Shown piece after piece: positions 661-16,790 of a stretch of 20,191 nt of DNA. Positions within the stretch are counted from its first letter, which is position 1. Every line of letters starts with the position of its first letter. The position numbers and the translations under genes were made by a program. Source of the DNA: a virus. The stretch is taken from IMG/VR virus record IMGVR_UViG_3300009176_000091, positions 1-20,191 of that record; one strand, written 5' to 3'. The notes under the pieces were generated by a model. The model ran no database searches. It was not told the DNA's origin and worked only from the letters and a program-made list of their open reading frames with translations.

Positions 661-1428
661 CTAAGCGGCCTCCGCTTCCTCTGGCTGCTGCTCTGGGTTC
701 TTGCGCGGCCGGCCGGGCCCTCGCTTCACCGGCTCATTCTCTTCGTGGCGAAGGCGGGCGAACACCTCCTCCATTTCCGCCATGCGGAGCTTAAGCGCCG
801 TATTCTCTTCAGACATAGCCGTCATCTGGACCGCGATCTGTGCCGGAACAGGCCCGTCCTGCATGACACCTTGAATGCGCAGGAACTCGATAGCCTCCTT
901 CTGGATCTCCAGAACGCCTGGGAGAGGAAGCTTCATCAGATGGCCGCTCGGAGCCGTCGCAAAGTCCTCGACGGTCTTGTATTCGGCATCCCTGATGATT
1001 TTGAGTTGGGCCGGTGTCAGGTGCCCCCATCTCGACAGCGGCATTCCATCCACTGGCGGCTCTTCGTTCCGCTTCCACGCCTCGTAGACCGGCTCAATTT
1101 TAGGCCACAACTCCCGGGACTTGGCAACACGTGCCACCTTGTCGGAAAACGTCGGTGGGATGTTGCCGCTGGTTTGCGGACGAAGCGACCACGACACGTA
1201 GTCGACCGGCACCGTCTCGACGATGGTGCGCGTCGTCTCGCGCGGCATGCGCTTTTCCGTCACCTTGGTTTCGTCGGTCGGGTCGGCAACGCGCACGATC
1301 TCGATGGTGGTCTGCTTCTCCTCCCGCGTCTGCTTCTCATATTCGGTGCGGAACTCGATATGAGTAATCCATGGGACGCTGCGCGCCCGCATGGTCTCCT
1401 CATTCTGGATTTGTAGGCCGTTTGCCAT
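661..1428 (-). CDS. Hypothetical virion-associated protein with C-terminal coiled coil and AT-hook-like tail
   Basis: A 255-aa protein starting at an ATG with a GGGCG-type ribosome site a few bases upstream. The first 80 residues are rich in charged and beta-prone residues and include repeated TTRTIVETV-type strings. The middle (about 100-185) contains WGHLTPAQLKIIRDAEYKTVEDFA, which resembles a short helix-hairpin segment. Residues about 205-235 form a probable coiled coil (MSEENTALKLRMAEMEEV). The end is KRGPGRPRKNP followed by an acidic tail, an AT-hook-like GRP core. I do not recognise a family with certainty. It lies between a 124-aa Lys/Ala-rich protein and the adaptor gene, tightly packed with both, so a role in the virion or in late DNA handling is likely but unproven. 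Confidence 0.8.
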   Translation of the reverse strand: MANGLQIQNEETMRARSVPWITHIEFRTEYEKQTREEKQTTIEIVRVADPTDETKVTEKRMPRETTRTIVETVPVDYVSWSLRPQTSGNIPPTFSDKVARVAKSRELWPKIEPVYEAWKRNEEPPVDGMPLSRWGHLTPAQLKIIRDAEYKTVEDFATAPSGHLMKLPLPGVLEIQKEAIEFLRIQGVMQDGPVPAQIAVQMTAMSEENTALKLRMAEMEEVFARLRHEENEPVKRGPGRPRKNPEQQPEEAEAA

Positions 1429-1436
1429 GACGCGCC

Positions 1437-1811
1437 CTACTTCTGCTTGCCGTGTGGTGCAGACTTCTCAAAGGCCGTGAAGTCGCCGCGCGTGCTTGGG
1501 TGTTTTGGCTCTTCGACCTTCTTGGGTGCCTCGGCCTTTTTGGCGGCTGCGGCAGCTTCGTCCCTGGCCTTCTTGTCTGCCGCTGCCGCTGCCGCCGCGA
1601 CTTCAGCCTTCCTGGCCGCCTCGTCTGCCGCCAGCTTGGCTGGAGCCGGCCTCTTCGCGGCAACCCAGTTCTTGTAAGAGCCTTCGATGACCGACCAGAA
1701 GTCGGTGCTCTTCAGCCGCTCGATGGTCTCGGAGCCGCTGTCGTCGTTGTCGTTGACCCACGTGGCCCAGTCCTCGCCTTTTCCACGCGTTTCAAATGTT
1801 ACCGTCTTCAT
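1437..1811 (-). CDS. Hypothetical Ala/Lys-rich protein
   Basis: A 124-aa ORF whose start is set by a very good ribosome site (AAGGAG, 8 bases before the ATG) lying inside the 3' end of the DUF115-methyltransferase gene; the two genes overlap by 20 bases. The N-terminal 55 residues look globular (DWATWVNDNDDSG, DFWSVIEGSYKNWVAAKRP). Residues about 58-95 form a long Ala/Lys/Glu helix with a run of alanines, encoded by a GCC/GCA/GCG-rich stretch, and the C-terminus is Lys-rich. No family is recognised. The overlap suggests translation coupled to the upstream enzyme gene, so it might be a partner or just a neighbouring structural gene. Confidence 0.75.
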   Translation of the reverse strand: MKTVTFETRGKGEDWATWVNDNDDSGSETIERLKSTDFWSVIEGSYKNWVAAKRPAPAKLAADEAARKAEVAAAAAAADKKARDEAAAAAKKAEAPKKVEEPKHPSTRGDFTAFEKSAPHGKQK

Positions 1812-3189
1812 TGCTCTCTCCTTTCACTAGAAATTGCGAAACCCCTTCTGCCTCTCGCGACCACGTGACGGAGGCCCCAACCCATTCGAAGGCTTCCATC
1901 CACCACGCATGCGGCTTCACAGTCAGGTGCAGCGTGTGCCCTATCAGTTCACCGCAGTCGTCTTTTCGGGTGCTGATCTGGAAGAACACCGTCTCGGCGG
2001 CTTCCATGATGTTCGCCAGTACGTCGTTCACCTGCCCTTGGGCAATGTGCTCCATGACATCGGAGCAGAAGCCCCAGTGCGCCCTAGCAGGGATTGGACG
2101 GGCCAAGTCCCACTCCAGAAACGGCAGGCTCATCGCCTCCTCATCCCGGCAGTTGTCCGCGAAGTCGATGAGCAGCACCTCGTGTCCCGATTTGGACAAC
2201 TCAAGTCCTGCCCTCCCCGTCCCGCAGCCGAAGTCGATCACCAGCCCATCAGGCTTGGCGACCTCAAGGAACGTCGGGACCGCATGCTCTCCGGGCGACA
2301 CTTGCCGGTAGGTATCGAACTGCCAAAGCAGCCGGTATTTGTCCTGCTCTGTCAGGTCTTTCGGCTTCGTCAGGTACATCGCCGGCAACAGCCCATCGCC
2401 GTAGACGTGCAGCGTGCAGCCTTCCTGCTTCAGCGCCTGCGCGGTGATCTGGAACTTCTCGGCCTGCGCCTTCATGGCGACCGAGCTGTGGTAAGTCCGG
2501 CCTCCCCACTCCACGTCAACGCATGGAATGAAGCGGTTCATATCCTGCGGGTAGGCGTGCGACTGCCCGTCTCGGTGCGAGGAGTCGTAGCCAAAAATAT
2601 GAAACTCGCGGTAGCCCATCGTGTAGGCGAGCGCGAGGGCCGAATTGCCCACCGCAGCACCGCCGCCAATTAGGGCGTAGCCGCCGCGCTTTACCCGCTT
2701 CTCCGGGAACCAACGCTCGATGTTGCCGACCTCAAGGTGCCAGAGCGTTCCAAAGTCCCCACCGATGTATCGCAGGCACTCGGGGTTAACCTGAGAGGCA
2801 AATAGATATTCCTCTGCCCATGGATCAACCAAGCCCGCCGTCTCAGGCTTCGCGTCGGCAATGACCTGGTAGTCAACGCTGATGCGATGCTCGTGACACC
2901 ACTCGCTGGCGGCGTTCATCGCGAAGATATGGGCACCCTTCCGGTCCAGCGCCCGGATGTCATCGACGTGATCAGTGACTGACGGCCCGCCGCCCACCAT
3001 GACGGCGATGCGGTCGTGCGGCTCTTCCAGCTTGACCCACTTCAGATCGCGCTTTGAATTCTCCCGGACGTTCCGCTCTAGGTCTTCGTCCGACGTGTTG
3101 CAGATGACCAGAACCGGGATAAACAGCGGCTTCTCGGCCTGCGGGTTCTGATACGTCATCTGGACGATTTGACTGCGCGGTGCGGTCAT
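1792..3189 (-). CDS. DUF115 (MptE/Maf-like) - SAM-dependent methyltransferase fusion
   Basis: A 465-aa protein. The ATG at 3189 is chosen because AGGAG lies 7 bases before it; the same frame runs back to a GTG at 3240, but that would start inside a terminator stem. Residues about 60-275 match the DUF115 pattern: VMVGGGPSV (64-71), FAMNAAS (89-95), then GGGAAVGNSALALAYTMGY (175-193) and FHIFGYDSS (197-204). In other organisms this fold is found in MptE-type pterin pyrophosphokinases and in Maf-type flagellin glycosyltransferases. Residues about 313-455 form a class I methyltransferase: motif I VIDFGCGTGRAG (317-328), a strand ending LLIDFADN (339-346) and SDVMEHI (376-382). The gene sits directly after the capsid/decoration terminator. 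Substrate is unknown; modification of a virion protein or a host surface sugar are both possible. Confidence 0.85.
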   Translation of the reverse strand: MTAPRSQIVQMTYQNPQAEKPLFIPVLVICNTSDEDLERNVRENSKRDLKWVKLEEPHDRIAVMVGGGPSVTDHVDDIRALDRKGAHIFAMNAASEWCHEHRISVDYQVIADAKPETAGLVDPWAEEYLFASQVNPECLRYIGGDFGTLWHLEVGNIERWFPEKRVKRGGYALIGGGAAVGNSALALAYTMGYREFHIFGYDSSHRDGQSHAYPQDMNRFIPCVDVEWGGRTYHSSVAMKAQAEKFQITAQALKQEGCTLHVYGDGLLPAMYLTKPKDLTEQDKYRLLWQFDTYRQVSPGEHAVPTFLEVAKPDGLVIDFGCGTGRAGLELSKSGHEVLLIDFADNCRDEEAMSLPFLEWDLARPIPARAHWGFCSDVMEHIAQGQVNDVLANIMEAAETVFFQISTRKDDCGELIGHTLHLTVKPHAWWMEAFEWVGASVTWSREAEGVSQFLVKGESNEDGNI

Positions 3190-3201: not shown

Positions 3202-3239
3202 AAAATGGGGGCGGGAACTTACTTGGGAGCCCGCCCCCA
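3202..3239 (-). terminator. Intrinsic terminator after the decoration gene
   Basis: On the minus strand a 10-bp perfect stem, TGGGGGCGGG paired with CCCGCCCCCA, encloses a 14-base loop and is followed at once by TTTT. It lies between the stop of the probable decoration protein (3259) and the ATG of the DUF115-methyltransferase gene (3189). Only about a dozen bases remain between the T-run and that ATG, so there is no room for a promoter; the downstream genes probably depend on read-through. The plus-strand reading lacks a T-run, so it is directional. Confidence 0.75.
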
Positions 3240-3243
3240 CCGC

Positions 3244-3261: not shown

Positions 3262-3759
3262 CGTCACGCGCCCGCTGTGGTGCGGACGCGAGATGACCAG
3301 CGTCACCGTCGATACGTCGGACTTGGCCGAAGCCACCGCCGAAACGATAGCACCCGCCAGTTCCTTGCCGGTGCCGCTCGCCGACACCAAGCCCGTCGTC
3401 TTCACGCCAACCGCAGCTGCAGCCGCGAGCGACGTGCCCACAGCCTTGGCCGCAACGGCGCGACCGCTGATCTGATACCAGCCATACTGCGAGGCAACAT
3501 TCGCCGACATGGCGAACGCCACCGGACGCGGTAGAGCGGCACCGACCGCCGAGAGCGTCGTTACCCATGTGGTGCCCACGTCATAGGTGACGCAGGAGCC
3601 GACGATGGTGTTGGCGACCCCGATCAGATAGATGAACTCGCCCCACCCGTAGGTGGTGTCGAAAGCCCAGACTACCTGCCCGAGTTCGTGCTTCTTCGTC
3701 GTGGACGTCTCCGCAATCGCCTGTGCGCCGGCGAGAGCGCTTCTGACTTGATAAGCCAT
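3259..3759 (-). CDS. Probable capsid decoration / head fibre-type protein
   Basis: A 166-aa protein beginning MAYQVRSALAG. The frame is open further upstream (to 3819), but the ATG at 3759 has GGGAGGG just before it and sits 14 bases after the capsid gene stop, so I take that start. The sequence is rich in Ala, Val, Thr and Gly without charged clusters, typical of compact beta-rich virion surface proteins. A segment GRAVAAKAVGTSLAAAAAVG (about 119-138) followed by SASGTGKELAGAIVS resembles proteins that accompany major capsid proteins in podovirus-like phages. Position directly behind the capsid gene and before a terminator supports high expression and a head role. The specific function is inferred. 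Confidence 0.7.
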   Translation of the reverse strand: MAYQVRSALAGAQAIAETSTTKKHELGQVVWAFDTTYGWGEFIYLIGVANTIVGSCVTYDVGTTWVTTLSAVGAALPRPVAFAMSANVASQYGWYQISGRAVAAKAVGTSLAAAAAVGVKTTGLVSASGTGKELAGAIVSAVASAKSDVSTVTLVISRPHHSGRVT

Positions 3760-3773
3760 GTTCTTGCCCTCCC

Positions 3774-4742
3774 TTATGCGGCGTCGATCAGAACGCCTTG
3801 CAGCGCCCGATTCGAACACACCAACTGGTGCATGGAGATGATGGGAACGACCACGGCATCCTGGTTCAGCGACGATTTCTCGTCACCGACCGTCCATTGC
3901 GCGTCCTCGTGGAAGACAAGCTCCAGATAGTCGGTATTGAGAAAATACATCTTCTCCGCCGTAGTGGCGAAGTTGGTGTTGTCGTCGAAGATCACGTCCG
4001 CAGTGACGTACTTCAGTTCCGGGAAGCCGGCTCCAGCCGAGTCCCCTGACGCGCCGTTGGTGTAGCGCTGCAGGTCCTGCAGGCTTTCCCAATATGCCGA
4101 GTAGAAGTCATGGCTCGACACGATAAGATCGGGGCGATCACCGCCACGAACCTGCCTCAACCAAAGGATGTTCATATACCCCTTGATATTGGCCTTGCTC
4201 CACGCGTTGGATGACGGGATCTCGTAGAACTGGTTCATCCACTGCGTATAGGTGCCGCTGATGATGCCACCGACCGTGCCCGTTCCTGCGTTCTGGATGA
4301 TGAGGCCGAGGCCCCCCATCTGGTTCGTCAGGGCACCGGACGAGTATAAGTCGATGGACATATTGTTGGCGGCAGTGCGCTTGGCGTTATTGATGCGCGC
4401 CTTCACAAGATTGAAGATCTCCTGAGGGCCATTGTTCTTGCGCATTTCTTCGCCGGCTGCGGCGACATGGACAGCCGCATTAACCCAGTCATATTTCGCA
4501 GCGCTGATGACATCACCCGCACCGATGGCGAGGGTGTCGTACATCGAGTATCGCTGGTAGTTCGGGTTTTCGGCAATATCCAAGGGCCGGACGATTTCAT
4601 ATCCGCCTTGCAACGTGACCTTCTTCTGCTTTTTCAGACGACGGTAGAGAGCGTTATGCTCACTCACGTTGTCGGCAATCTCCGCTGGGTGATTGCGCAG
4701 CGTCGAGGTCACAATTTCAGTAAACGTGCTGTTTGCTGGCAT
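3774..4742 (-). CDS. Major capsid protein
   Basis: A 322-aa protein with GGAG 8 bases before its ATG. It starts MPANSTFTEIVTSTLRNHP, followed by NVSEHNALYRRLKKQKK, a basic segment and GGYEIVRPLDIAENPNYQRY (about 46-65). The central part contains NAKRTAANNMSIDLYSSG and a PDLIVSSHDFYSAYWESLQ block near residue 205, and the C-terminal part has MYFLNTDYLELVFHED. Such features are typical of HK97-fold coat proteins in phages with P22-like portal and gp4-like adaptor. It would form the icosahedral shell around the scaffold. Position right after the scaffold gene (gap about 25 bases) supports the call. Length is usual for the group. Confidence 0.9.
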   Translation of the reverse strand: MPANSTFTEIVTSTLRNHPAEIADNVSEHNALYRRLKKQKKVTLQGGYEIVRPLDIAENPNYQRYSMYDTLAIGAGDVISAAKYDWVNAAVHVAAAGEEMRKNNGPQEIFNLVKARINNAKRTAANNMSIDLYSSGALTNQMGGLGLIIQNAGTGTVGGIISGTYTQWMNQFYEIPSSNAWSKANIKGYMNILWLRQVRGGDRPDLIVSSHDFYSAYWESLQDLQRYTNGASGDSAGAGFPELKYVTADVIFDDNTNFATTAEKMYFLNTDYLELVFHEDAQWTVGDEKSSLNQDAVVVPIISMHQLVCSNRALQGVLIDAA

Positions 4743-6485: not shown

Positions 6486-7214
6486 CTACATCTGCTGCTT
6501 CTGGGCCTTCGCCTTCGCGTCCATCATCTCCAAGCCCATCTCGTGCTTGCTCTCCATCTCCTGAGTGGAAAGCTCCGTCTGCCGCTCCTGCATCTGCATG
6601 TCGGCCGACGCCTGCTCCTGCTTGATGGCCGCCGTCATCTGCATGTCCTGCTGCTTTAGTTGCAGTTCCTGAGCCTTGAGTTGTAGCTCGGCCTGTTTCA
6701 GCGAAAAGGCCAGCTTCATCTCCTCCAGCTTCATGGCGTGCTCTTGCTGCTTCGCCTGCATATCCATCTGGGTCTGCTGCTGCTTGGCCTGGATATCGGC
6801 AGCCTTGCCCTGCATGTCCATTTGAGCCTTGGCCTGCTCGGTCTTGGCCTTCATCTCCTCCGGGCTGGGCTTTGGCGGCTGCTTGGCCTTCTTCTCAGCC
6901 TCCTCTTGCGCCTGATCGAGCGCATCCTCGGCCTGCTTACCCAGCTTGTAGTTGCGGGCAAACGCCGTGTAGACCTTGATGAGCAGGTCAGGCGGGATGA
7001 TGCCGGTCTGTAGCGCTTCCGTGGCACCCTGCAGAAACATCCCGGTTCCCTGCATGAACTGGTTCATCTGCTCTTGGCTACGCACCAAGTCTGCCCGGAT
7101 GGTGGAATCGCTCTCAATGTCGACGCGGTACTGACGGAGCAGATCATTGCGCAGGAGGCCGAGCACCTCCTCCCACGTCGGCAGCGTGAGAATCTCCTCG
7201 GGAGTGAGCGCCAT
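6486..7214 (-). CDS. Portal protein C-terminal domain encoded as a separate gene, with Gln/Met-rich coiled coil
   Basis: A 242-aa protein starting at the ATG at 7214, which shares one base with the stop of the spike gene (TGATG); the frame is open upstream to 7250 but that part is spike coding sequence. Residues about 5-60 (LTLPTWEEVLGLLRNDLLRQ, then YRVDIESDSTIRADLVRSQE, NQFMQGTGMF) match the segment that in intact P22-like portals follows the KGxQ..WGSLR region, where a WxxVxxLLRxDxxRxYRIDIETDST pattern occurs. Residues about 75-105 (PDLLIKVYTAFARNYKLGK) also fit. The remainder (about 100-242) is a Gln/Met/Lys/Ala coiled coil of the kind seen in portal barrels. Together with the 514-aa upstream gene it totals 756 aa, close to a full portal. 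The assignment rests on motif memory and should be tested structurally. Confidence 0.75.
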   Translation of the reverse strand: MALTPEEILTLPTWEEVLGLLRNDLLRQYRVDIESDSTIRADLVRSQEQMNQFMQGTGMFLQGATEALQTGIIPPDLLIKVYTAFARNYKLGKQAEDALDQAQEEAEKKAKQPPKPSPEEMKAKTEQAKAQMDMQGKAADIQAKQQQTQMDMQAKQQEHAMKLEEMKLAFSLKQAELQLKAQELQLKQQDMQMTAAIKQEQASADMQMQERQTELSTQEMESKHEMGLEMMDAKAKAQKQQM

Positions 7215-9346
7215 CAGGCGTTGTCCTGCTTCCCGCCTATCGGCACCCATACATCGGTCACGATCTTCGTCAGCATGATCGTGTCGAGCGGAACGGTAAG
7301 CACGAAGTCGGCACCACAGAAGATATTGCCGGTGCCGTTCTTCACGGTGACATCGTTGCCGCCATCCGCCGATGAGAATACAATGACTTGGCCTCGGTTG
7401 CCGCCGGTTATGGTGTTCAGGTCAACTGCTCCGCCACCAGTAGCGAGAGCGAAGCATATCGGATAGCCAACCGGTATGTTGTCGGGAAGAGTGACCGCGT
7501 TTGCAGATATCGTCAGCGTCTTGGTCAGCGGCACCCAATCGTTGCCTACCTCCAGGGGATTCGCTCCGAACCCGTCAGAAATGCCGGTAATTGTCATGTC
7601 GGAAATGTTGTCCCGAACGATGATGCGATCACCCCACAGTGGCACGCCCGTCGAGCCAAACCGGATGGCGCGCAGCGAGATGTCCAGAAACTTGTTGCTT
7701 TCAAAGATCAAGTCGCCGCTCGCGCCACCGCTGGAGCCGAGGATGTCAAAGCCGTAGGTTCCATTCTGGAAGACGCATTCCTTAAAGTTCCAATTTCCCA
7801 TATCGGTCTTGGGGAGATAGTTATCCCGGATAATAGGATTGGCAGGGTCAGTGCCGGTAAATTCGGTGTTGCGCACCCGCCAGTTCGGGTAGCTCTTCCC
7901 GTTCAGTTCACAAACCAGTGGAGCGGTGAACTTGGAGTCGGAGAGCTTGAACTCGTCCCATGCTACAACGGCATGGATGCCGCTTACGGAGCAGTCGAAG
8001 TTGCAGTTATTGATGCGGAGGAAGCCGCTCGATGGCAGCTCCGAATAGGTAGCCGCGTCGATGTTGCCGACGCCGATGGTCAGGCCGCCCTCGCAACTGA
8101 TGTCGCAGTTCGACATGGTTAGGTCTTTGCCGCGGTGCTGAACGCCCGTGCCGCACATGATGACGTTGTGGCCGACGACGTTCATTCCCTGATATTTGTG
8201 CCCGGCCGGCCCGGTGATGCAGGAGTAGCTGTTGCCGCCAACGATGTGGATGTCGCAGCACGGAATTTGTTGCGAAACATCGTCGTCGAACATATGAATT
8301 GGTGAAGCATCCGGATCAACAAGGCGACGGCAGAACCGTGCCGTGCAGCCAGTCACGTTGACACCTAACACACCACACACCGCCCACCCAGTGAACCATT
8401 GGGAAATATGTGACGGATCGTAGTTCGACGGGTCATCCAGCTTGCGGCCGATGATGTTCGTATTGACCATGCTATGATCAATGCCAAGATTGGACAATAC
8501 TGCAAAACGCGGAAAGTTCTCGAAGAAGCAGTCAACCATCGTCGCGCGATCTACAAAATCTAAGTCAATTGCGCGAACGCCTGTGGGATTTGTGGTGTCA
8601 TGCAGCGCGCCGCCGCCCGCTCCTATTGCCCGCATGCCCTTGATGGTAATGTCATGGATTGTTTTTACTTTGCGCACATAAGACGTGTAGGTTTCGGCAA
8701 GGTAGGTGTATTTGAGCGGGAGTGCTGGTGTTATCGCGTCATCGAAAATAAACCCAACGTAATTGAGTTCACCATTATTACTTGAATCGAAGCCGCCGAC
8801 GCCTGCCACTCCATTCCAATAATCTCCAGTGCTGGTGATGGCGATGATGTCGCCCTCGTTCAAGACGGACGGGTCGGCGACGGTGAAAGCAGAGTTGTTT
8901 ACATCCGTTACATCAGCGCTGCCCGCAGCAACGTTCGTCGTGATGGTCGTGCGCTCGCCAAAACAGTTGGCGTATGGATTTACCAGCAACGTGTCATATT
9001 CGGGGGGAGCAAAGTGCAAGACCGCCCACGCATCGGCGTCAGCGCCGGCGTCGGACTCGGAGAGGTCCAGTATGCCCCGCCCCTGCCCGTCGATGGTCAC
9101 GTTGGAAGCCGTAAAAATCTGCTCGTCGTTGAGCTTATATCGCCCGGTCATATTGATCAGCACGCCGCGCCCTTCGGCGTCGTCTTCGGAGAGCCCGTTG
9201 ACATAGGCAGCAAGAGCGGCGAATGCCGTATCCGAGGACGCCACGCCAGACGGGTCGGCCCCAAACTGCTCGGGCGTAATTGTCCGCGTAGACTCGGCGG
9301 GCGGGAAAAAGCCCTCAAGCCGGTCGGGGAAGGTAAAGACCTTCAT
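7214..9346 (-). CDS. Right-handed beta-helix tailspike-like protein (third spike)
   Basis: A 710-aa protein starting MKVFTFPDRLEGFF at an ATG that overlaps the previous stop (ATGA). Residues 27-95 have the pectate-lyase/tailspike opening: QFGADPSGVASSDTAFAALA, GVLINMTGRYKL, VTIDGQGRGILDL. The body (about 110-590) consists of repeated short strands with N/D/G/C turns, such as DLTMSNCDISCEGGL and LRINNCNFDCSV, typical of parallel beta-helix coils. The last 100 residues form a beta-rich capping domain (NTITGGNRGQVIVFSSADGG, VTVKNGTGNIF) common at fibre ends. It shares its N-terminal plan, including a TSTGDYWNGVAG-like loop, with the first spike. A role in recognising or degrading a host surface polysaccharide is likely; catalytic residues cannot be named. 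Confidence 0.85.
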   Translation of the reverse strand: MKVFTFPDRLEGFFPPAESTRTITPEQFGADPSGVASSDTAFAALAAYVNGLSEDDAEGRGVLINMTGRYKLNDEQIFTASNVTIDGQGRGILDLSESDAGADADAWAVLHFAPPEYDTLLVNPYANCFGERTTITTNVAAGSADVTDVNNSAFTVADPSVLNEGDIIAITSTGDYWNGVAGVGGFDSSNNGELNYVGFIFDDAITPALPLKYTYLAETYTSYVRKVKTIHDITIKGMRAIGAGGGALHDTTNPTGVRAIDLDFVDRATMVDCFFENFPRFAVLSNLGIDHSMVNTNIIGRKLDDPSNYDPSHISQWFTGWAVCGVLGVNVTGCTARFCRRLVDPDASPIHMFDDDVSQQIPCCDIHIVGGNSYSCITGPAGHKYQGMNVVGHNVIMCGTGVQHRGKDLTMSNCDISCEGGLTIGVGNIDAATYSELPSSGFLRINNCNFDCSVSGIHAVVAWDEFKLSDSKFTAPLVCELNGKSYPNWRVRNTEFTGTDPANPIIRDNYLPKTDMGNWNFKECVFQNGTYGFDILGSSGGASGDLIFESNKFLDISLRAIRFGSTGVPLWGDRIIVRDNISDMTITGISDGFGANPLEVGNDWVPLTKTLTISANAVTLPDNIPVGYPICFALATGGGAVDLNTITGGNRGQVIVFSSADGGNDVTVKNGTGNIFCGADFVLTVPLDTIMLTKIVTDVWVPIGGKQDNA

Positions 9347-9951: not shown

Positions 9952-11495
9952 CAGTATGCCCCTTGCTGGGCTATGGGAGGCCGCTGAGCGCCGTTGAGCT
10001 CACCAGGCTGCTGAGGGGCCTGCGGACGCTGTGGCGCTTGCTGGACCTGCTGAGCGGCCGCAGCCTGCTTTTTAGCGAAATCCTGCTCCCACTGCGCCGG
10101 CAACTCGATACCGCTCATCAGCTTGATGGTCTCGTCACCAAACTTGTTGGCGATGATCTCCGCCTTCAGCCGGAACAGGTCGCGCGCATATTTTGCAATT
10201 GCCTTCTGGCGGTTCTGAATGCGCAGGCTGCCCCACTGCGTCTTGATTTCTTGCGCGCCCTTGGTCTCCCTCGGGTCCGTCTGTCCCCGCATGATGTCGG
10301 CGGTGCCACACACCTCGTAGATTTTCTGCTTGGTAATCTCGCTTTGCAGCGTCACCTTTTCAAGAGCAGCGGACACTTGATCCAGCGGCATTACCCAAAT
10401 GGCTTTGTCGAGCCCACCGCCCAGCGAGTAGATAGCCTCGATGTCCTGCACCGGCGGGAAATCACCATCGCCTGCGACCGCTAGATTCTCGAAGTCCTTG
10501 ATGCGACTGTCCCGCAGCCCCCGGTATTTCAGGCAGGCCGTCAGCCCCATGATGCGCTGCGTCTCTAGATCCAGCTGTTCAGCCAATCTGCGATACAGGC
10601 GATAGAGTGGCACAGGAACCAGCGTATCAGTCGTTCTGATCACGTAGAGCGGCGGCGGAACCGGAAAGAAGCCTTCAAGGCCCAGGGGGTCTGGCTCACG
10701 CGAAATTGGCGCATCCTTGTAGGATGGAGCTATGTAGATGACCTCCTCCGTCGCCTTGTCCCAGATTTCCCAAACCCGAGCCCGCATGAAGATGTCGGGT
10801 GCCGGCTTGTCCGCTTCCCGTGTCTTGTCGTCCGCCACTTCCACGTCGAGTTGAATCTTCTCGGCAATCTCGGACTCGCAGATGTCGCGGAGCTCATCGC
10901 GAGTGTAAAAATGCTCGAACGCTATCCACGGGACGTAGGCCCACTGCCTTTCTGGACCATGCCGGAAATTCGCCCAGCCAACATGCTCGCAAATGGCCAA
11001 TTCCCAAGCCTTTTTGCCCTGCAAGCGTCCCTTGCCAGGAACAGACTTATAATGAACCCTTGTAACGCCGCGTCCGGTTAGCTCGTTGTCCTTGAGTGCC
11101 GCTTCCATGACAGCGTCGAAGTCGTAGGCGTCCGTCAGGTAGGACAGGCACCGCTCAATGCATTGCGAGCCATATTTCGCCACCGGGTCCTTATCGTTGA
11201 ACCGCCTCCGCACGTCTGGAATAGGCGTCGAGTTGTAAAGCGCCGGAACCGTCGTCTCGACGTTCGCAAACAGAATATTGAAGTAGTCCGACCCGACAAG
11301 CTGCGTCGTGGTGCTCGCCGACGCCTCCTCCTGGCGATAGCGCTTGACGACGAGTTCCGCCTCCGTCCTCCAGGACTTCTCCTCTTCATCCGCCGCATCG
11401 AGCGCGCTGAGCCACATGCGGACGAGCCCAGCGTTGTCCTGCGCTGCCTCTTCCCTGGTTTCGAAGACTTCGGTGGAGTCGACGGGATCAGCCAT
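9951..11495 (-). CDS. Portal protein, N-terminal and core part (split portal)
   Basis: A 514-aa protein whose ATG shares one base with the stop of the second spike (TGATG). Diagnostic regions of P22-like portals: NILFANVETTVPALYNSTP (73-91) with VRRRF; DNELTGRGVTRVHYK (136-150); a DPLGLEGFFPVPPPLY segment; RLYRRLAEQLDLETQRI; and GTADIMRGQTDPRETKGAQE with TQWGSLRIQNRQ (397-430), followed by ARDLFRLKAEIIANKFG. The portal forms the dodecameric DNA channel at one capsid vertex and docks the terminase. The chain then ends in a 48-residue Gln/Pro/Ala-rich tail where intact portals continue into the WxxVLxLLRxD...DIExDST domain. That domain is found instead in the gene at 6486-7214. Confidence 0.9.
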   Translation of the reverse strand: MADPVDSTEVFETREEAAQDNAGLVRMWLSALDAADEEEKSWRTEAELVVKRYRQEEASASTTTQLVGSDYFNILFANVETTVPALYNSTPIPDVRRRFNDKDPVAKYGSQCIERCLSYLTDAYDFDAVMEAALKDNELTGRGVTRVHYKSVPGKGRLQGKKAWELAICEHVGWANFRHGPERQWAYVPWIAFEHFYTRDELRDICESEIAEKIQLDVEVADDKTREADKPAPDIFMRARVWEIWDKATEEVIYIAPSYKDAPISREPDPLGLEGFFPVPPPLYVIRTTDTLVPVPLYRLYRRLAEQLDLETQRIMGLTACLKYRGLRDSRIKDFENLAVAGDGDFPPVQDIEAIYSLGGGLDKAIWVMPLDQVSAALEKVTLQSEITKQKIYEVCGTADIMRGQTDPRETKGAQEIKTQWGSLRIQNRQKAIAKYARDLFRLKAEIIANKFGDETIKLMSGIELPAQWEQDFAKKQAAAAQQVQQAPQRPQAPQQPGELNGAQRPPIAQQGAY

Positions 11496-13255
11496 CAGGC
11501 CGTGCCCACCTTCAGATACCGCCCAGACACGCGCAGTAGCGAAGTATTGGTGAAATCGGCATCCGTGAGCCGCGCCGGATTACCCACCCCAGCCGCCATC
11601 TTGTAGACCTCGATGGTCGTCGTGTTCGACATCACCAGGGCGGAGAGCATCGTATCGCCAACGCCCGCCGTCATGAGCGAGGCGTGAATGGTGCAGGGAA
11701 AGTTCAACCCGACCATCGACGCAACGGGCAGGCCACTGATCAGGAAGTTCCCCGTCGAGCTGCCCTTGTTAGTGAACGCAGCCGCCATGAAGAATTCGAC
11801 TATGTGTTCGTCGACCATGACGCGTCCGCTGACATTGACAGTCGCACCCACCAGCGCGCCGCCGAACGAGACAGTGAACACGTTGTTAGAGACGGGCAGA
11901 CCGCCAATGCGCTCGACGACTCCGACTTCCGCGCCTCCATAGTCATTCCCGCTATAGCCCAACTCCATATCGTTCTTACTGTAGACGTTGGTGCCGGTCG
12001 ACGATCTGAGAATAGCAACGGTAGCGTTGCCGACTAGGCACTTGTTCAGCGCGATAAAACACCCGTTCGGGACGAACGTACCTCCATCGGTAACGCTGAT
12101 GCAGGAAGTTGTAGCAACGGCCCAGACCAAATCCGGATCAATATCCGAAATCTCGTTGCTAGTGACGACGATGTTCTCCGTGGCGCGCCCGGCCGTTGAG
12201 CTGCCAGTTACGATGATGCCGGCTAGCCCCGATCCCCTAATCCTGTTGCCGGTGGCGAGATTGTTCTGCGCCCCATGAATGAACTTCAGCCCATAGATGT
12301 AGTTATTGACCAGCCGGTTGCCGCTGATGATGGAATCGGAGCCGAAGCAGTCGATCCCTTCGCCGGTGTCCTCGATGTAGTTGCCGCGCAGGGAGAGGTC
12401 TGTAGCCCCATAGTGCGCGACGTTGATGCCGTCGCTTTGCTCCTGTAGCCACGGCGCGGAAGCACTACGAGACAGGCGGAAATCGAGACCCACGCGCACA
12501 CTGATGATGCGATTGTCATGTAGCTTGATGCTTTGGCAGCGGACGCTGTTGATCGGATCGCCGTCAATATGGATGGCGGTGATGTTCGGTGCCGGCGTGG
12601 CGGCGTATGCCGTCGAGTTCTCTAGGCAGTCATGGATGTAGTTGTTGGAGACAGAGCCGCCGACGAAACTTTGCAGATTGATCTGATCTCCCAGCGGAAA
12701 ACCAGACAACTCATTGCCGTCAATATCGCAGTCTTCACAATTGTGCGCCGCAATGCCGACGATCATCCGCCCATCATCCACCTCGCTTCGGAGATGGATG
12801 TTGCTGATCGCCGCCTTGCTGATGGGGAGGTAGCTACCCGAGCGCTGGCCAGTCAGCATCAGGCCGACGGCATTCGAGCCGTAACGCTGGCCTACCCCGT
12901 AACCAGTCGTGTTTGTCGCATTGACACTGCTAAACGCGCTCGCCGGCATGTAGAGAGTGCCACGACTAGACCCCTGCCCTTCAATGCATGTTTCGTCTAC
13001 CGTGATTTCGGCGCGCTGAGAAAGCCGGAAGAACGACCCCGGCCGCATCAGCCAGCCCTTGCCGCTTACGGCAACAATCTCCTGTAAAACCCGCGTGTTG
13101 AGGGCATCATGAGTATCGTCGTCTTCGTCCGTCACCTCGCGCATCGGAGCCCAGCTATCACCTAAATAGCGGCGCACAATGTGCTTCTGCGGCCCGATGA
13201 CAGACACACTTTCGGGGTCCGAGACGGCCGTCTCGGTTGAATAACCGATAGCCAT
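11495..13255 (-). CDS. Right-handed beta-helix tailspike-like protein (second spike)
   Basis: A 586-aa protein starting MAIGYSTETAVSDPES. The first 60 residues differ from the other two spikes and contain an acidic REVTDEDDDTHDALN stretch, perhaps a distinct virion-attachment part. From about residue 75 to 420 the sequence shows beta-helix coils: ITVDETCIEGQG, NNYIHDCLENS, LSLRGNYIEDTGEGIDCFG, DSIISGNRLVNN, NLATGNRIRGSGLAGIIVTG. The final 150 residues are a beta-rich trimerisation or binding-type domain without helix repeats. It precedes portal-N with overlapping stop/start codons. Likely a receptor-binding protein or polysaccharide depolymerase; no active site can be assigned by eye. Confidence 0.82.
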   Translation of the reverse strand: MAIGYSTETAVSDPESVSVIGPQKHIVRRYLGDSWAPMREVTDEDDDTHDALNTRVLQEIVAVSGKGWLMRPGSFFRLSQRAEITVDETCIEGQGSSRGTLYMPASAFSSVNATNTTGYGVGQRYGSNAVGLMLTGQRSGSYLPISKAAISNIHLRSEVDDGRMIVGIAAHNCEDCDIDGNELSGFPLGDQINLQSFVGGSVSNNYIHDCLENSTAYAATPAPNITAIHIDGDPINSVRCQSIKLHDNRIISVRVGLDFRLSRSASAPWLQEQSDGINVAHYGATDLSLRGNYIEDTGEGIDCFGSDSIISGNRLVNNYIYGLKFIHGAQNNLATGNRIRGSGLAGIIVTGSSTAGRATENIVVTSNEISDIDPDLVWAVATTSCISVTDGGTFVPNGCFIALNKCLVGNATVAILRSSTGTNVYSKNDMELGYSGNDYGGAEVGVVERIGGLPVSNNVFTVSFGGALVGATVNVSGRVMVDEHIVEFFMAAAFTNKGSSTGNFLISGLPVASMVGLNFPCTIHASLMTAGVGDTMLSALVMSNTTTIEVYKMAAGVGNPARLTDADFTNTSLLRVSGRYLKVGTA

Positions 13256-14468: not shown

Positions 14469-16727
14469 TCAGGCCGCGATGACCCCGCGCGCCTTAATTG
14501 TCGGATTGGCGTAGTTGATTGTCTGCGCCGTCGCAGTGCTGCTCGCCGTGTCAGTCGTCGTGAACGTCATCTTATCTGGCGTGACCGCTGTCACGCGCGT
14601 CTTCAACGTAGCCGCAGCCGGCCCAGCAGTAGGAATGCTTATATAATTCCCCGGCATAAACCCAGCACTGGCTGTCGTGGTAAGAATGTTAGTTCCGCTC
14701 GTCATCGATCCAGTCCGGACCGTGCTCCCCATCGTGCCGGCAGCTGTAACTACATACCCCTCAACGCCTGCAGCCGTAGGCGTCACCTTATCGAACTTAT
14801 CCCCAACACGAACCGTCCTGCCATGCTGATGCCCATTGTCCTCAGTGCCATCAAAAACACCAGCAGTCGGCCAATACTCATAAACAGGCTCACCAAGACA
14901 CCTATTACCCCCAATAGCCGGAAACGCCTTGAACATGTATCCAAACGTGAAGCTTACCGCGCTAGCTAACGGCTTGGAAAACAAGTTATCCTGAACTCGA
15001 ATGTTGTCACCATAAAAGCCGCGCGCCCCGCTGTCATTCCCCAGCCTCAAATCAAAGTTGTCTATATTAAGAAACGTGTTCCCAGAAATATCAATGTTAT
15101 CAGCAGGCGTCTCGACCCCAGGTAAATCAAAATCTCCACACCCCTCGATCAACACACCTGTGGCAAAATTGTCAAATGTATTACCAATAATCCTAATAGC
15201 CCCACGCTCCAACGTTTTCCCATTAAAATTGTCATCCTCAATACCATAAACACCATCATCCAGCGCTGGCCGGTTAGGACTGTGAAAGTAATTTCCAGAA
15301 ATATTCATCGACCTTATGCGATTAGAAATAGTCCTAATGCCATTCTCACTCATATTAGTAGCGACATTCCCCGTAACGCTTACCACATCACTGTCACCCG
15401 TCAGTGTTAAAAACCTACCGTCACAATGGTCCACAACATTATTTGCGATTAGGACATTACCATTTGCCACAAGCCCGTTGTCGTCATACCCTTGATCGCT
15501 TGGTCCCCCGACTGAGGCAAAGGCACCCCCACAATAGGTCGCGCGATTGCCGACGATAGCAACATTCCTGCCGCGAAAATCAAACGCCCCACCCCGGCCA
15601 GAGATTATCGTATTGCCGGCAAACAGCGCGTCTGCCGCCTGATGGCAGATGAACGGATTGGCGCAGGAGTGGGCGAGATTCCCAACCACGTTCAGGGCGC
15701 GGGTGACGACCGCCAGACCGTCCCCGCCGCCGCCGCCGTCCATGAAATGCCGATGCCGGTAGCCGATGTTTCGGGTGAAATCCTGCCCCTGCACACTGAC
15801 ATTGTTTATGAAATAGAACCACGGGCTAAGCGTCGCCCCCTGGTTCGACGCCGTGGTCAGATCTAGTCCCTGGCTGACGTTTCCGCTCACCTCAGAGTAT
15901 AAGACATGATTCAACATAAGCGCGAAGCTGGAGAAATTATTCCACCGGCAGTCGTTGATCTTGAGGCCACGAACGTAAAAGCATCCCAGTCCCCGCGCCG
16001 TGCTAGGAATGGAGCTTCCTAACCACGAGCTTCCCTGCGCCGGCCCCTCAAAGCCCAGGCCCTTGACATTAATCTTTTCGAGAAAATTCATCTTCGTAAG
16101 GGTCTGCGTGTTGGGCGACACAGACCCAAACGCCGCCCGCGTGTAGCTATCCAGAATCCCGCTCTCGAACGTGATCACATTGCCCGAGATGAACGAAATC
16201 TGGAGGAACTCTCCCTTCGTCGTCAGCCCATACCCAGACGCCCCCGAGATGCCGTTGAAATACTCTGTGGACGTGAACTTGCAGAAATCACCCACCGCAA
16301 AGTCGGCAGCGCTCGCAACCGTTATCTGCGTGTCCCCAATTGCCACGTCGTGCGTACATGTCGTCGTCGTAGCGCTGATCGACCCGCCAAAATGCAAGCC
16401 ATGCGCCCCCGTATCCAACCCTGTGCAGTCCAAAACGGACGAACCGTTTCCGTCTATCGTGATGTTTCCACGCCCGATGACGACCCCTGTGCCGGTAAGC
16501 TTATATCTCCCGTAGGGAAACAGCAGCGTCCCGCCCGTCAGCGCCACGTCGGCGATTGCTGCCTCGATTGCAGCGTTTGCACTCACTACACCAGTCGGAT
16601 CAACATTATAAATCGGGTCCATAATGTTGACCGGTGCCGTGGTTCCATAGGGGCCGGCCGTTGGTGCAAAGCCGATGGCTGGCGCAATGAGCGGCGGCTG
16701 TATCTCCCATCCGGTTACGGCTGCCAT
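14469..16727 (-). CDS. Right-handed beta-helix tailspike-like protein (first spike)
   Basis: A 752-aa protein from the ATG at 16727 (MAAVTGWEIQPPL). The frame is open to a TTG at 16778 but that start lacks a ribosome site; no strong site is visible for the ATG either. Residues 37-100 show the pectin-lyase-fold opening: NVDPTGVVSANAAIEAAIAD, GGTLLFPYGRYKL, ITIDGNGSSVLD. Residues about 145-170 (FTSTEYFNGISGASGYG) match the corresponding loop of the third spike. The body has beta-helix coils such as VAIVGNRATYCGGAF and MNISGNYFHS, then a switch near EYWPTAGVFDGTEDNGHQHG to a C-terminal beta domain. The coding stretch 14880-15480 is clearly poorer in G+C and uses AGG, ATA, AAT and ACT codons unlike its neighbours, suggesting acquisition by recombination. 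Confidence 0.85.
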   Translation of the reverse strand: MAAVTGWEIQPPLIAPAIGFAPTAGPYGTTAPVNIMDPIYNVDPTGVVSANAAIEAAIADVALTGGTLLFPYGRYKLTGTGVVIGRGNITIDGNGSSVLDCTGLDTGAHGLHFGGSISATTTTCTHDVAIGDTQITVASAADFAVGDFCKFTSTEYFNGISGASGYGLTTKGEFLQISFISGNVITFESGILDSYTRAAFGSVSPNTQTLTKMNFLEKINVKGLGFEGPAQGSSWLGSSIPSTARGLGCFYVRGLKINDCRWNNFSSFALMLNHVLYSEVSGNVSQGLDLTTASNQGATLSPWFYFINNVSVQGQDFTRNIGYRHRHFMDGGGGGDGLAVVTRALNVVGNLAHSCANPFICHQAADALFAGNTIISGRGGAFDFRGRNVAIVGNRATYCGGAFASVGGPSDQGYDDNGLVANGNVLIANNVVDHCDGRFLTLTGDSDVVSVTGNVATNMSENGIRTISNRIRSMNISGNYFHSPNRPALDDGVYGIEDDNFNGKTLERGAIRIIGNTFDNFATGVLIEGCGDFDLPGVETPADNIDISGNTFLNIDNFDLRLGNDSGARGFYGDNIRVQDNLFSKPLASAVSFTFGYMFKAFPAIGGNRCLGEPVYEYWPTAGVFDGTEDNGHQHGRTVRVGDKFDKVTPTAAGVEGYVVTAAGTMGSTVRTGSMTSGTNILTTTASAGFMPGNYISIPTAGPAAATLKTRVTAVTPDKMTFTTTDTASSTATAQTINYANPTIKARGVIAA

Positions 16728-16790
16728 GGAGATGCATATCCGAGGCCAACAATGGACATCGAGACACCTAGTTTTCAATCAGTGATTGGT

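Follow-up and report, generated by a model that had tools for sequence, protein, structure and literature searches.

A DUF115-methyltransferase fusion encoded behind the capsid decoration gene of a podovirus-like phage: a candidate enzyme for placing methylated sugars on the virion

Introduction

Few phages are known to have glycosylated virions, and only seldom has one enzyme been tied to the protein that is modified. Natural capsid glycosylation has been established in mycobacteriophages (Freeman et al. 2023, as cited in PMC12691614). In bacteria, Maf places nonulosonic acids on Ser/Thr residues of flagellin in O-linkage, and the PF01973 domain at its centre is similar to the sialyltransferase Cst-II (PMC11339370). 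The Pfam family PF01973 (MptE-like, formerly DUF115; Maf_flag10) also contains the archaeal 6-hydroxymethylpterin diphosphokinase MptE. Phage virion glycosylation is already known, as are phage proteins that UniProt calls 'MptE-like' by automatic annotation; our search of the open-access literature returned no study of DUF115/MptE-like proteins in phages and none describing a DUF115-methyltransferase module.

The DNA analysed here, referred to as the window, comprises the 20,191 nucleotides of IMG/VR record IMGVR_UViG_3300009176_000091. Its source is a podovirus-like phage that encodes, right after its capsid decoration gene, a fusion of a DUF115 domain with a methyltransferase domain. A comparison of more than 100 relatives suggests that phages of this kind attach methylated sugars to their own shell.

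Results

The fusion gene is a single open frame of 465 aa on the minus strand (1792..3189), at the coordinates given by the initial annotation; a forward-strand frame is ruled out by stops that interrupt the reading. Its start is ATG 3189, with AGGAG at 3199-3195 just 5' of it. Relatives begin at the same site, which makes use of GTG 3240, a start that would lengthen the protein, improbable. A chance fusion or frame artefact is likewise ruled out, because about 90 loci retain the fusion.

All motifs quoted in the initial annotation are present in the translation: GGGPS at residues 66-70, GGGAAVGNSALALAY at 175-189, FHIFGYD at 196-202 and DFGCGTGRAG at 319-328. Pfam assigns residues 39-206 to PF01973 (56.9 bits, cut-off 34.6, E 3e-15), and methyltransferase matches in the second half of the protein stay below the cut-off (best E 2e-4). 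The AlphaFold2 model, built with 19 family sequences (pLDDT 86.5, pTM 0.83), comprises two domains. For the DUF115 domain (residues 33-274; 2368..3093, minus strand), the top fold match by a wide margin is the flagellin glycosyltransferase Maf of Magnetospirillum magneticum AMB-1 (5mu5), with Z 22.2 across 222 residues at 3.2 Å. The methyltransferase domain (residues ~276-460; 1810..2364, minus strand) matches many SAM/SAH-bound class I methyltransferases over model residues 275-460 (Z 15-18). It combines a Rossmann-like fold with a motif I of the form D/E-x-G-x-G-x-G (DFGCGTGRA, 319-327), which identifies it as a class I SAM-dependent methyltransferase, and carries CSDVMEH at 375-381. A structure search had been proposed as a check on the initial claim of DUF115 and a class I methyltransferase in one chain, and both folds, together with the Pfam match, confirm that claim.

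Conservation extends to the key residues of both domains. Among 19 aligned relatives, G66-G68, S70, N92, D112, D202, H211 and Q215 are invariant in DUF115. In the methyltransferase, motif I is nearly invariant, with D319, G321, G323 and G325 strictly so, and D342, D377 and E380-H381 are also unchanged. With these residues kept, both domains look active.

Within PF01973, the phage domain sides with Maf. A profile of 15 diverse phage DUF115 sequences has Maf 5mu5 as its top match (52 bits, E 5.6e-13) over positions 30-193, including the invariant H..Q stretch, whereas archaeal MptE (8sd5) is matched at 22 bits (E 7e-4) over positions 12-127 only. The better fit to Maf by both fold and profile makes a glycosyltransferase the best reading of the domain and a pterin kinase an unlikely one. 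The link to pterin synthesis raised in the initial annotation was accordingly set aside, the MptE match being weak and covering half of the domain.

Upstream of the fusion gene lie the structural genes expected of a phage head. The major capsid protein is encoded at 3777..4742 (minus strand; phrog_9953, E 3.8e-76) and is followed by a 165-aa protein starting MAYQV (3262..3759, minus strand; phrog_29386, virion structural protein, E 2.3e-18). The model of the latter (pLDDT 86.6) finds its best PDB matches among phage decoration or capsid-stabilising proteins, namely those of HFTV1 (Z 12.2), XM1 (11.1) and FCWL1 (11.0), followed by Sf11 (10.9), T1 (10.3), Pam3 (9.9) and TW1 (9.6). This neighbour is therefore predicted to have the beta-tulip fold of decoration proteins, and the Myxococcus phages Mx8 and Mx9 have a homologue that bears the annotation 'major virion structural protein'. 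PHROGs matches to portal, major head protein and virion structural protein bear out the placement behind capsid and decoration genes proposed at the outset.

The arrangement is widespread. A single-sequence scan returned 24 close relatives of the fusion protein and an alignment scan found relatives on at least 510 viral contigs. The order capsid, decoration, DUF115-methyltransferase, p50-like gene, tail protein A recurs in about 90 loci; the p50-like gene, 3' of the slot that holds the fusion (664..1428, minus strand; Mx8 p50, E 7e-33), keeps its place in most loci. Mx8 and Mx9 are the nearest cultured relatives by gene order. When phage records were searched by tblastn with the whole fusion protein, the match, in MW202621.1, was confined to the methyltransferase part, and a search of phage records with the DUF115 part of locus L191 gave no match.

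Several features of the surrounding genome are recorded here in their own right. A 649-kb planctomycete contig from an Isosphaeraceae MAG (L099) contains the entire head module with the fusion inside, possibly as a prophage, which offers a host clue. The portal gene of the window seems to be split between 9954-11495 and 6489-7250 (both minus strand), the former matching positions 9-513 and the latter 517-703 of the 715 in phrog_12082. A 710-aa ORF and two small genes separate the pieces, and relatives mostly have a single portal ORF of ~640-810 aa. Three spike-like ORFs (11498-13255, 14472-16778 and 7217-9346 (-)), grouped within a short region and one of them sitting between both portal pieces, likely encode receptor-binding proteins; two are beta-helix proteins and the third has no family match.

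Between the decoration and fusion genes, a terminator-like GC hairpin is followed by ATTTTC (3204..3241, minus strand; 65-nt fold of -31.5 kcal/mol, z -2.5). Defined as a hairpin plus T-run of -15 kcal/mol or better, such an element occurs 3' of the decoration gene in 44% of 113 loci. The corresponding figure is 2% for shuffled sequences and about 1% behind the capsid, methyltransferase, scaffold and tail genes. A promoter/terminator scan of the window, whose loop and T-run rules are stricter than those of this survey, did not list the hairpin. The simplest reading of the sequence is a terminator or attenuator that would keep capsid and decoration expression high and that of the enzyme low; the lower predicted level is more in keeping with an enzyme than with a structural protein.

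The content of the slot varies among relatives. A methyltransferase of an unrelated family (PF13578) is the fusion partner of DUF115 in L191, L167 and L197, with the glycosyltransferase phrog_1962 fused as well in L191. This glycosyltransferase also accompanies DUF115 in L202, and two glycosyltransferase domains accompany DUF115 in L171. Elsewhere the slot holds a polysaccharide pyruvyl transferase (L045; PF04230, above cut-off) or a hexapeptide transferase (L182), and a second DUF115 protein is present in L043, L045 and L062. Such partners would fit a role of DUF115 in adding a sugar, with extension or capping to follow. Other insertions were seen between the decoration gene and the fusion: look-alike genes in L043 (5589-6167) and L046 (4660-5181) resemble sulfotransferases by eye only, with no backing from Pfam, PHROGs or PDB, and an ORF in L051 (7384-7998) looks, again by eye, like an HNH endonuclease.

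Whether related phages keep the two domains as separate neighbouring genes had also been raised with the initial annotation, and they do in L150, L026, L095, L096 and L108. The siphovirus MW202621.1 and three viral contigs encode a methyltransferase followed by a DUF115-like gene, with slight gene overlap where both ends are clear and directly 3' of the capsid gene where checked. Lysobacter dokdonensis DS-58 (L108) has the same type of pair within a region that resembles a prophage. The DUF115 group of these separate genes (A3) is linked to DUF115 by Pfam at E 0.002 and by hhalign at 91%, and its profile matched neither Maf nor MptE in the PDB. Fusions in the reverse order were found in L102 and L103, the L103 copy lying directly 3' of a capsid gene identified by eye. 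Fusion in either order, together with separate adjacent genes, is strong evidence that the two activities cooperate. In a phage-like region of a Polycyclovorans MAG (L107, 8803-10537), two small DUF115-looking genes, one with a marginal match only, lie just 5' of a stand-alone methyltransferase.

The history of the slot was followed through pairwise identities over 48 de-replicated loci, with permutation, jackknife and bootstrap; these loci were picked by similarity to the fusion, which narrows the identity range of all the correlations. Decoration and DUF115 identities vary together (rho 0.66, bootstrap 0.52-0.76), as do those of DUF115 and methyltransferase (0.56) and of decoration and methyltransferase (0.49). 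Capsid identities, in contrast, are poorly related to decoration (0.18) and DUF115 (0.06) and track tail protein A instead (0.62). With high correlations inside and low ones to the capsid, the decoration, DUF115 and methyltransferase sequences behave as one block that appears to have been paired with different capsid genes, despite the adjacency of decoration and capsid genes. For example, L001, L010, L028 and L097 share 26-30% capsid identity with the window, compared with 50-56% for decoration and ~60% for the fusion. Linkage of adjacent genes could by itself give a shared history, yet the adjoining decoration and capsid genes lack one.

A scan anchored on the decoration protein gave a similar picture over 74 loci, some of whose contigs were already among the fusion-anchored ones. 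The fusion was present in 53, the two domains formed neighbouring ORFs in one (L150), DUF115 occurred without this methyltransferase in 12 (3 cut by contig ends) and neither was found in 8 (1 cut). DUF115 adjoins the decoration gene in 66 of the 73 loci that have sequence beyond it. Decoration proteins without DUF115 (Mx8, Mx9, L180, L188 and L198) group together at one extreme of the tree, as would be expected if gains or losses had been few. The initial annotation had seen no partner gene in the window; shared history makes the decoration gene next door the likely partner, and the slot of relatives holds further sugar-modifying enzymes.

Decoration proteins of DUF115 carriers show a Ser/Thr excess, a weak signal because 108 sequences are set against only 5 from one clade. 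Two positions, T130 and S144 (numbered with the Met of MAYQV as 1), hold Ser/Thr in 97-98% of the carriers, compared with 0/5 sequences without DUF115. As this comparison is confounded by ancestry, these positions give only a hint of a possible acceptor site.

Discussion

On balance, we lean towards a two-domain enzyme that puts a methylated sugar on the phage particle, most likely on the decoration protein, using host nucleotide sugars. This agrees with virion modification as the role suggested initially, which gains support as a candidate function. Bearing directly on it are the two folds, the conserved position, the joint history with the decoration gene, the exchangeable partner domains and the hairpin. 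In the scheme that we infer, for the activity with its donor and acceptor as well as for the order of steps and the level of expression, the DUF115 domain would take a sugar from a nucleotide sugar of the host and attach it to Ser/Thr of a virion protein. This sugar is perhaps a nonulosonic acid, and the most likely acceptor is the beta-tulip decoration protein, whose gene lies just upstream. The methyltransferase domain would then methylate that sugar or, less likely, the protein. The hairpin would let only a share of late transcripts pass, giving the enzyme in catalytic rather than structural amounts.

The donor may be a sugar other than nonulosonic acid. The initial observation that the window has no sugar-synthesis gene holds for the ORFs tested against Pfam and PHROGs, and genes for nonulosonic-acid synthesis (NeuB and CMP-NulO synthetase; PF03102, PF02348) were found in none of the 22 relatives' records. 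Six cellular genomes holding relatives gave a strong NeuB match in one (L097, Rhodobacteraceae), weak matches in another and none in four.

Other readings were weighed against this one. The domain might be a pterin diphosphokinase, acting together with the methyltransferase in the synthesis or alteration of a pterin cofactor; PF01973 is named after MptE in Pfam and the profile does reach 8sd5, but the low score over half of the domain, the absence of pterin genes among the window ORFs tested (Pfam, PHROGs) and a constant site beside the decoration gene, which makes no pterin sense, render this highly improbable. More speaks for an enzyme that, late in infection, alters a sugar on the host surface, be it capsule, lipopolysaccharide or flagellin glycan, and thereby keeps progeny or rival phages from re-adsorbing. 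Genes acting on host sugars usually sit at variable moron sites, and the constant site beside the decoration gene, with its shared divergence, would be odd for one of them; the fusion also has no membrane or export part. Bacterial DUF115 and Cst-II-like enzymes, for their part, act on flagellin and surface glycans (PMC11339370). A stand-alone relative of the methyltransferase (35% identity; L110, 9980-10594) lies among flagellar hook and flagellin-like genes (by eye) in a Rhodospirillales MAG. The receptor of the window phage is also probably a polysaccharide, given the two beta-helix spike-like proteins, one weakly matching a capsule-lyase domain (K1-lyase 'Rider'). Taken together, we consider modification of host sugars unlikely.

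Virion modification could also take another course. The target might be a different virion protein, major capsid or tail, as would fit L026 and L096, where separate methyltransferase and DUF115 genes lie directly 3' of the major capsid gene with no recognised decoration gene, and the position of the reverse fusion in L103. In the window's own family, the near-zero capsid-DUF115 correlation beside the strong decoration-DUF115 one makes such a target rather improbable. The methyltransferase might instead act on protein, for example on Lys of the decoration or capsid protein, independently of the sugar step, the fusion only coupling expression. In Aeromonas caviae and Shewanella oneidensis, glycosylated flagellins do indeed carry lysine methylation as well (PMC9290775). 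Against this stands the fusion of DUF115 to two methyltransferase families, the present one and PF13578, in a slot shared with other sugar enzymes, which points to the sugar as the methylation target and leaves independent protein methylation doubtful.

For the wider set of loci, we see a nearly even chance that the slot is a widespread, previously unnamed virion-glycosylation island 3' of the decoration gene of tailed phages. Such an island would pair a Maf-like transferase with interchangeable methyl-, glycosyl-, pyruvyl- and acyl-transferases, giving a methyl-capped sugar coat on the decoration protein from host nucleotide sugars. Hundreds of phages from the environment share one slot that links a transferase with the likely acceptor encoded beside it, and natural controls exist in the empty slot of the culturable Mx8 and Mx9 and in the separate-gene pair of cultured L. 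dokdonensis DS-58. If true, phages would offer a compact means of adding methylated sugars to capsids, and many 'MptE-like' phage proteins would deserve a new name.

The locus can finally be set beside the systems already described. The mycobacteriophages share a glycosylated capsid and differ in their hosts, and we know of no DUF115-methyltransferase module reported for their virion glycosylation. Mx8 and Mx9 have homologous proteins in the common order TerL-portal-p46-scaffold-capsid-decoration-p50-p51, but their slot between decoration and p50 is empty, with neither DUF115 nor a methyltransferase. The predicted structures of three 'MptE-like' proteins of uncultured Caudovirales in BFVD (A0A6J7XC21, A0A6J5PVH5 and A0A6J5L5C1) align with the fusion over 241-460 columns, A0A6J5PVH5 at 1.3 Å across 241 columns; they are longer (540-700 aa), and their annotation is automatic only and states no function. 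MptE (8sd5) belongs to the same Pfam family, yet its weaker match covers the first half of the domain only and the phage locus has no pterin context. Maf (5mu5) shares the PF01973 domain, its fold, the GxGPS region and the conserved D..H..Q region. Its three-domain layout, with an N-terminal degenerate Rossmann domain and a C-terminal helical bundle, is absent from the 465-aa fusion, which consists of DUF115 and methyltransferase only. Whereas Maf modifies flagellin, in a gene context of flagellin and nonulosonic acids, the phage protein carries an apparently intact methyltransferase after DUF115 and is encoded among late genes, beside a decoration gene.
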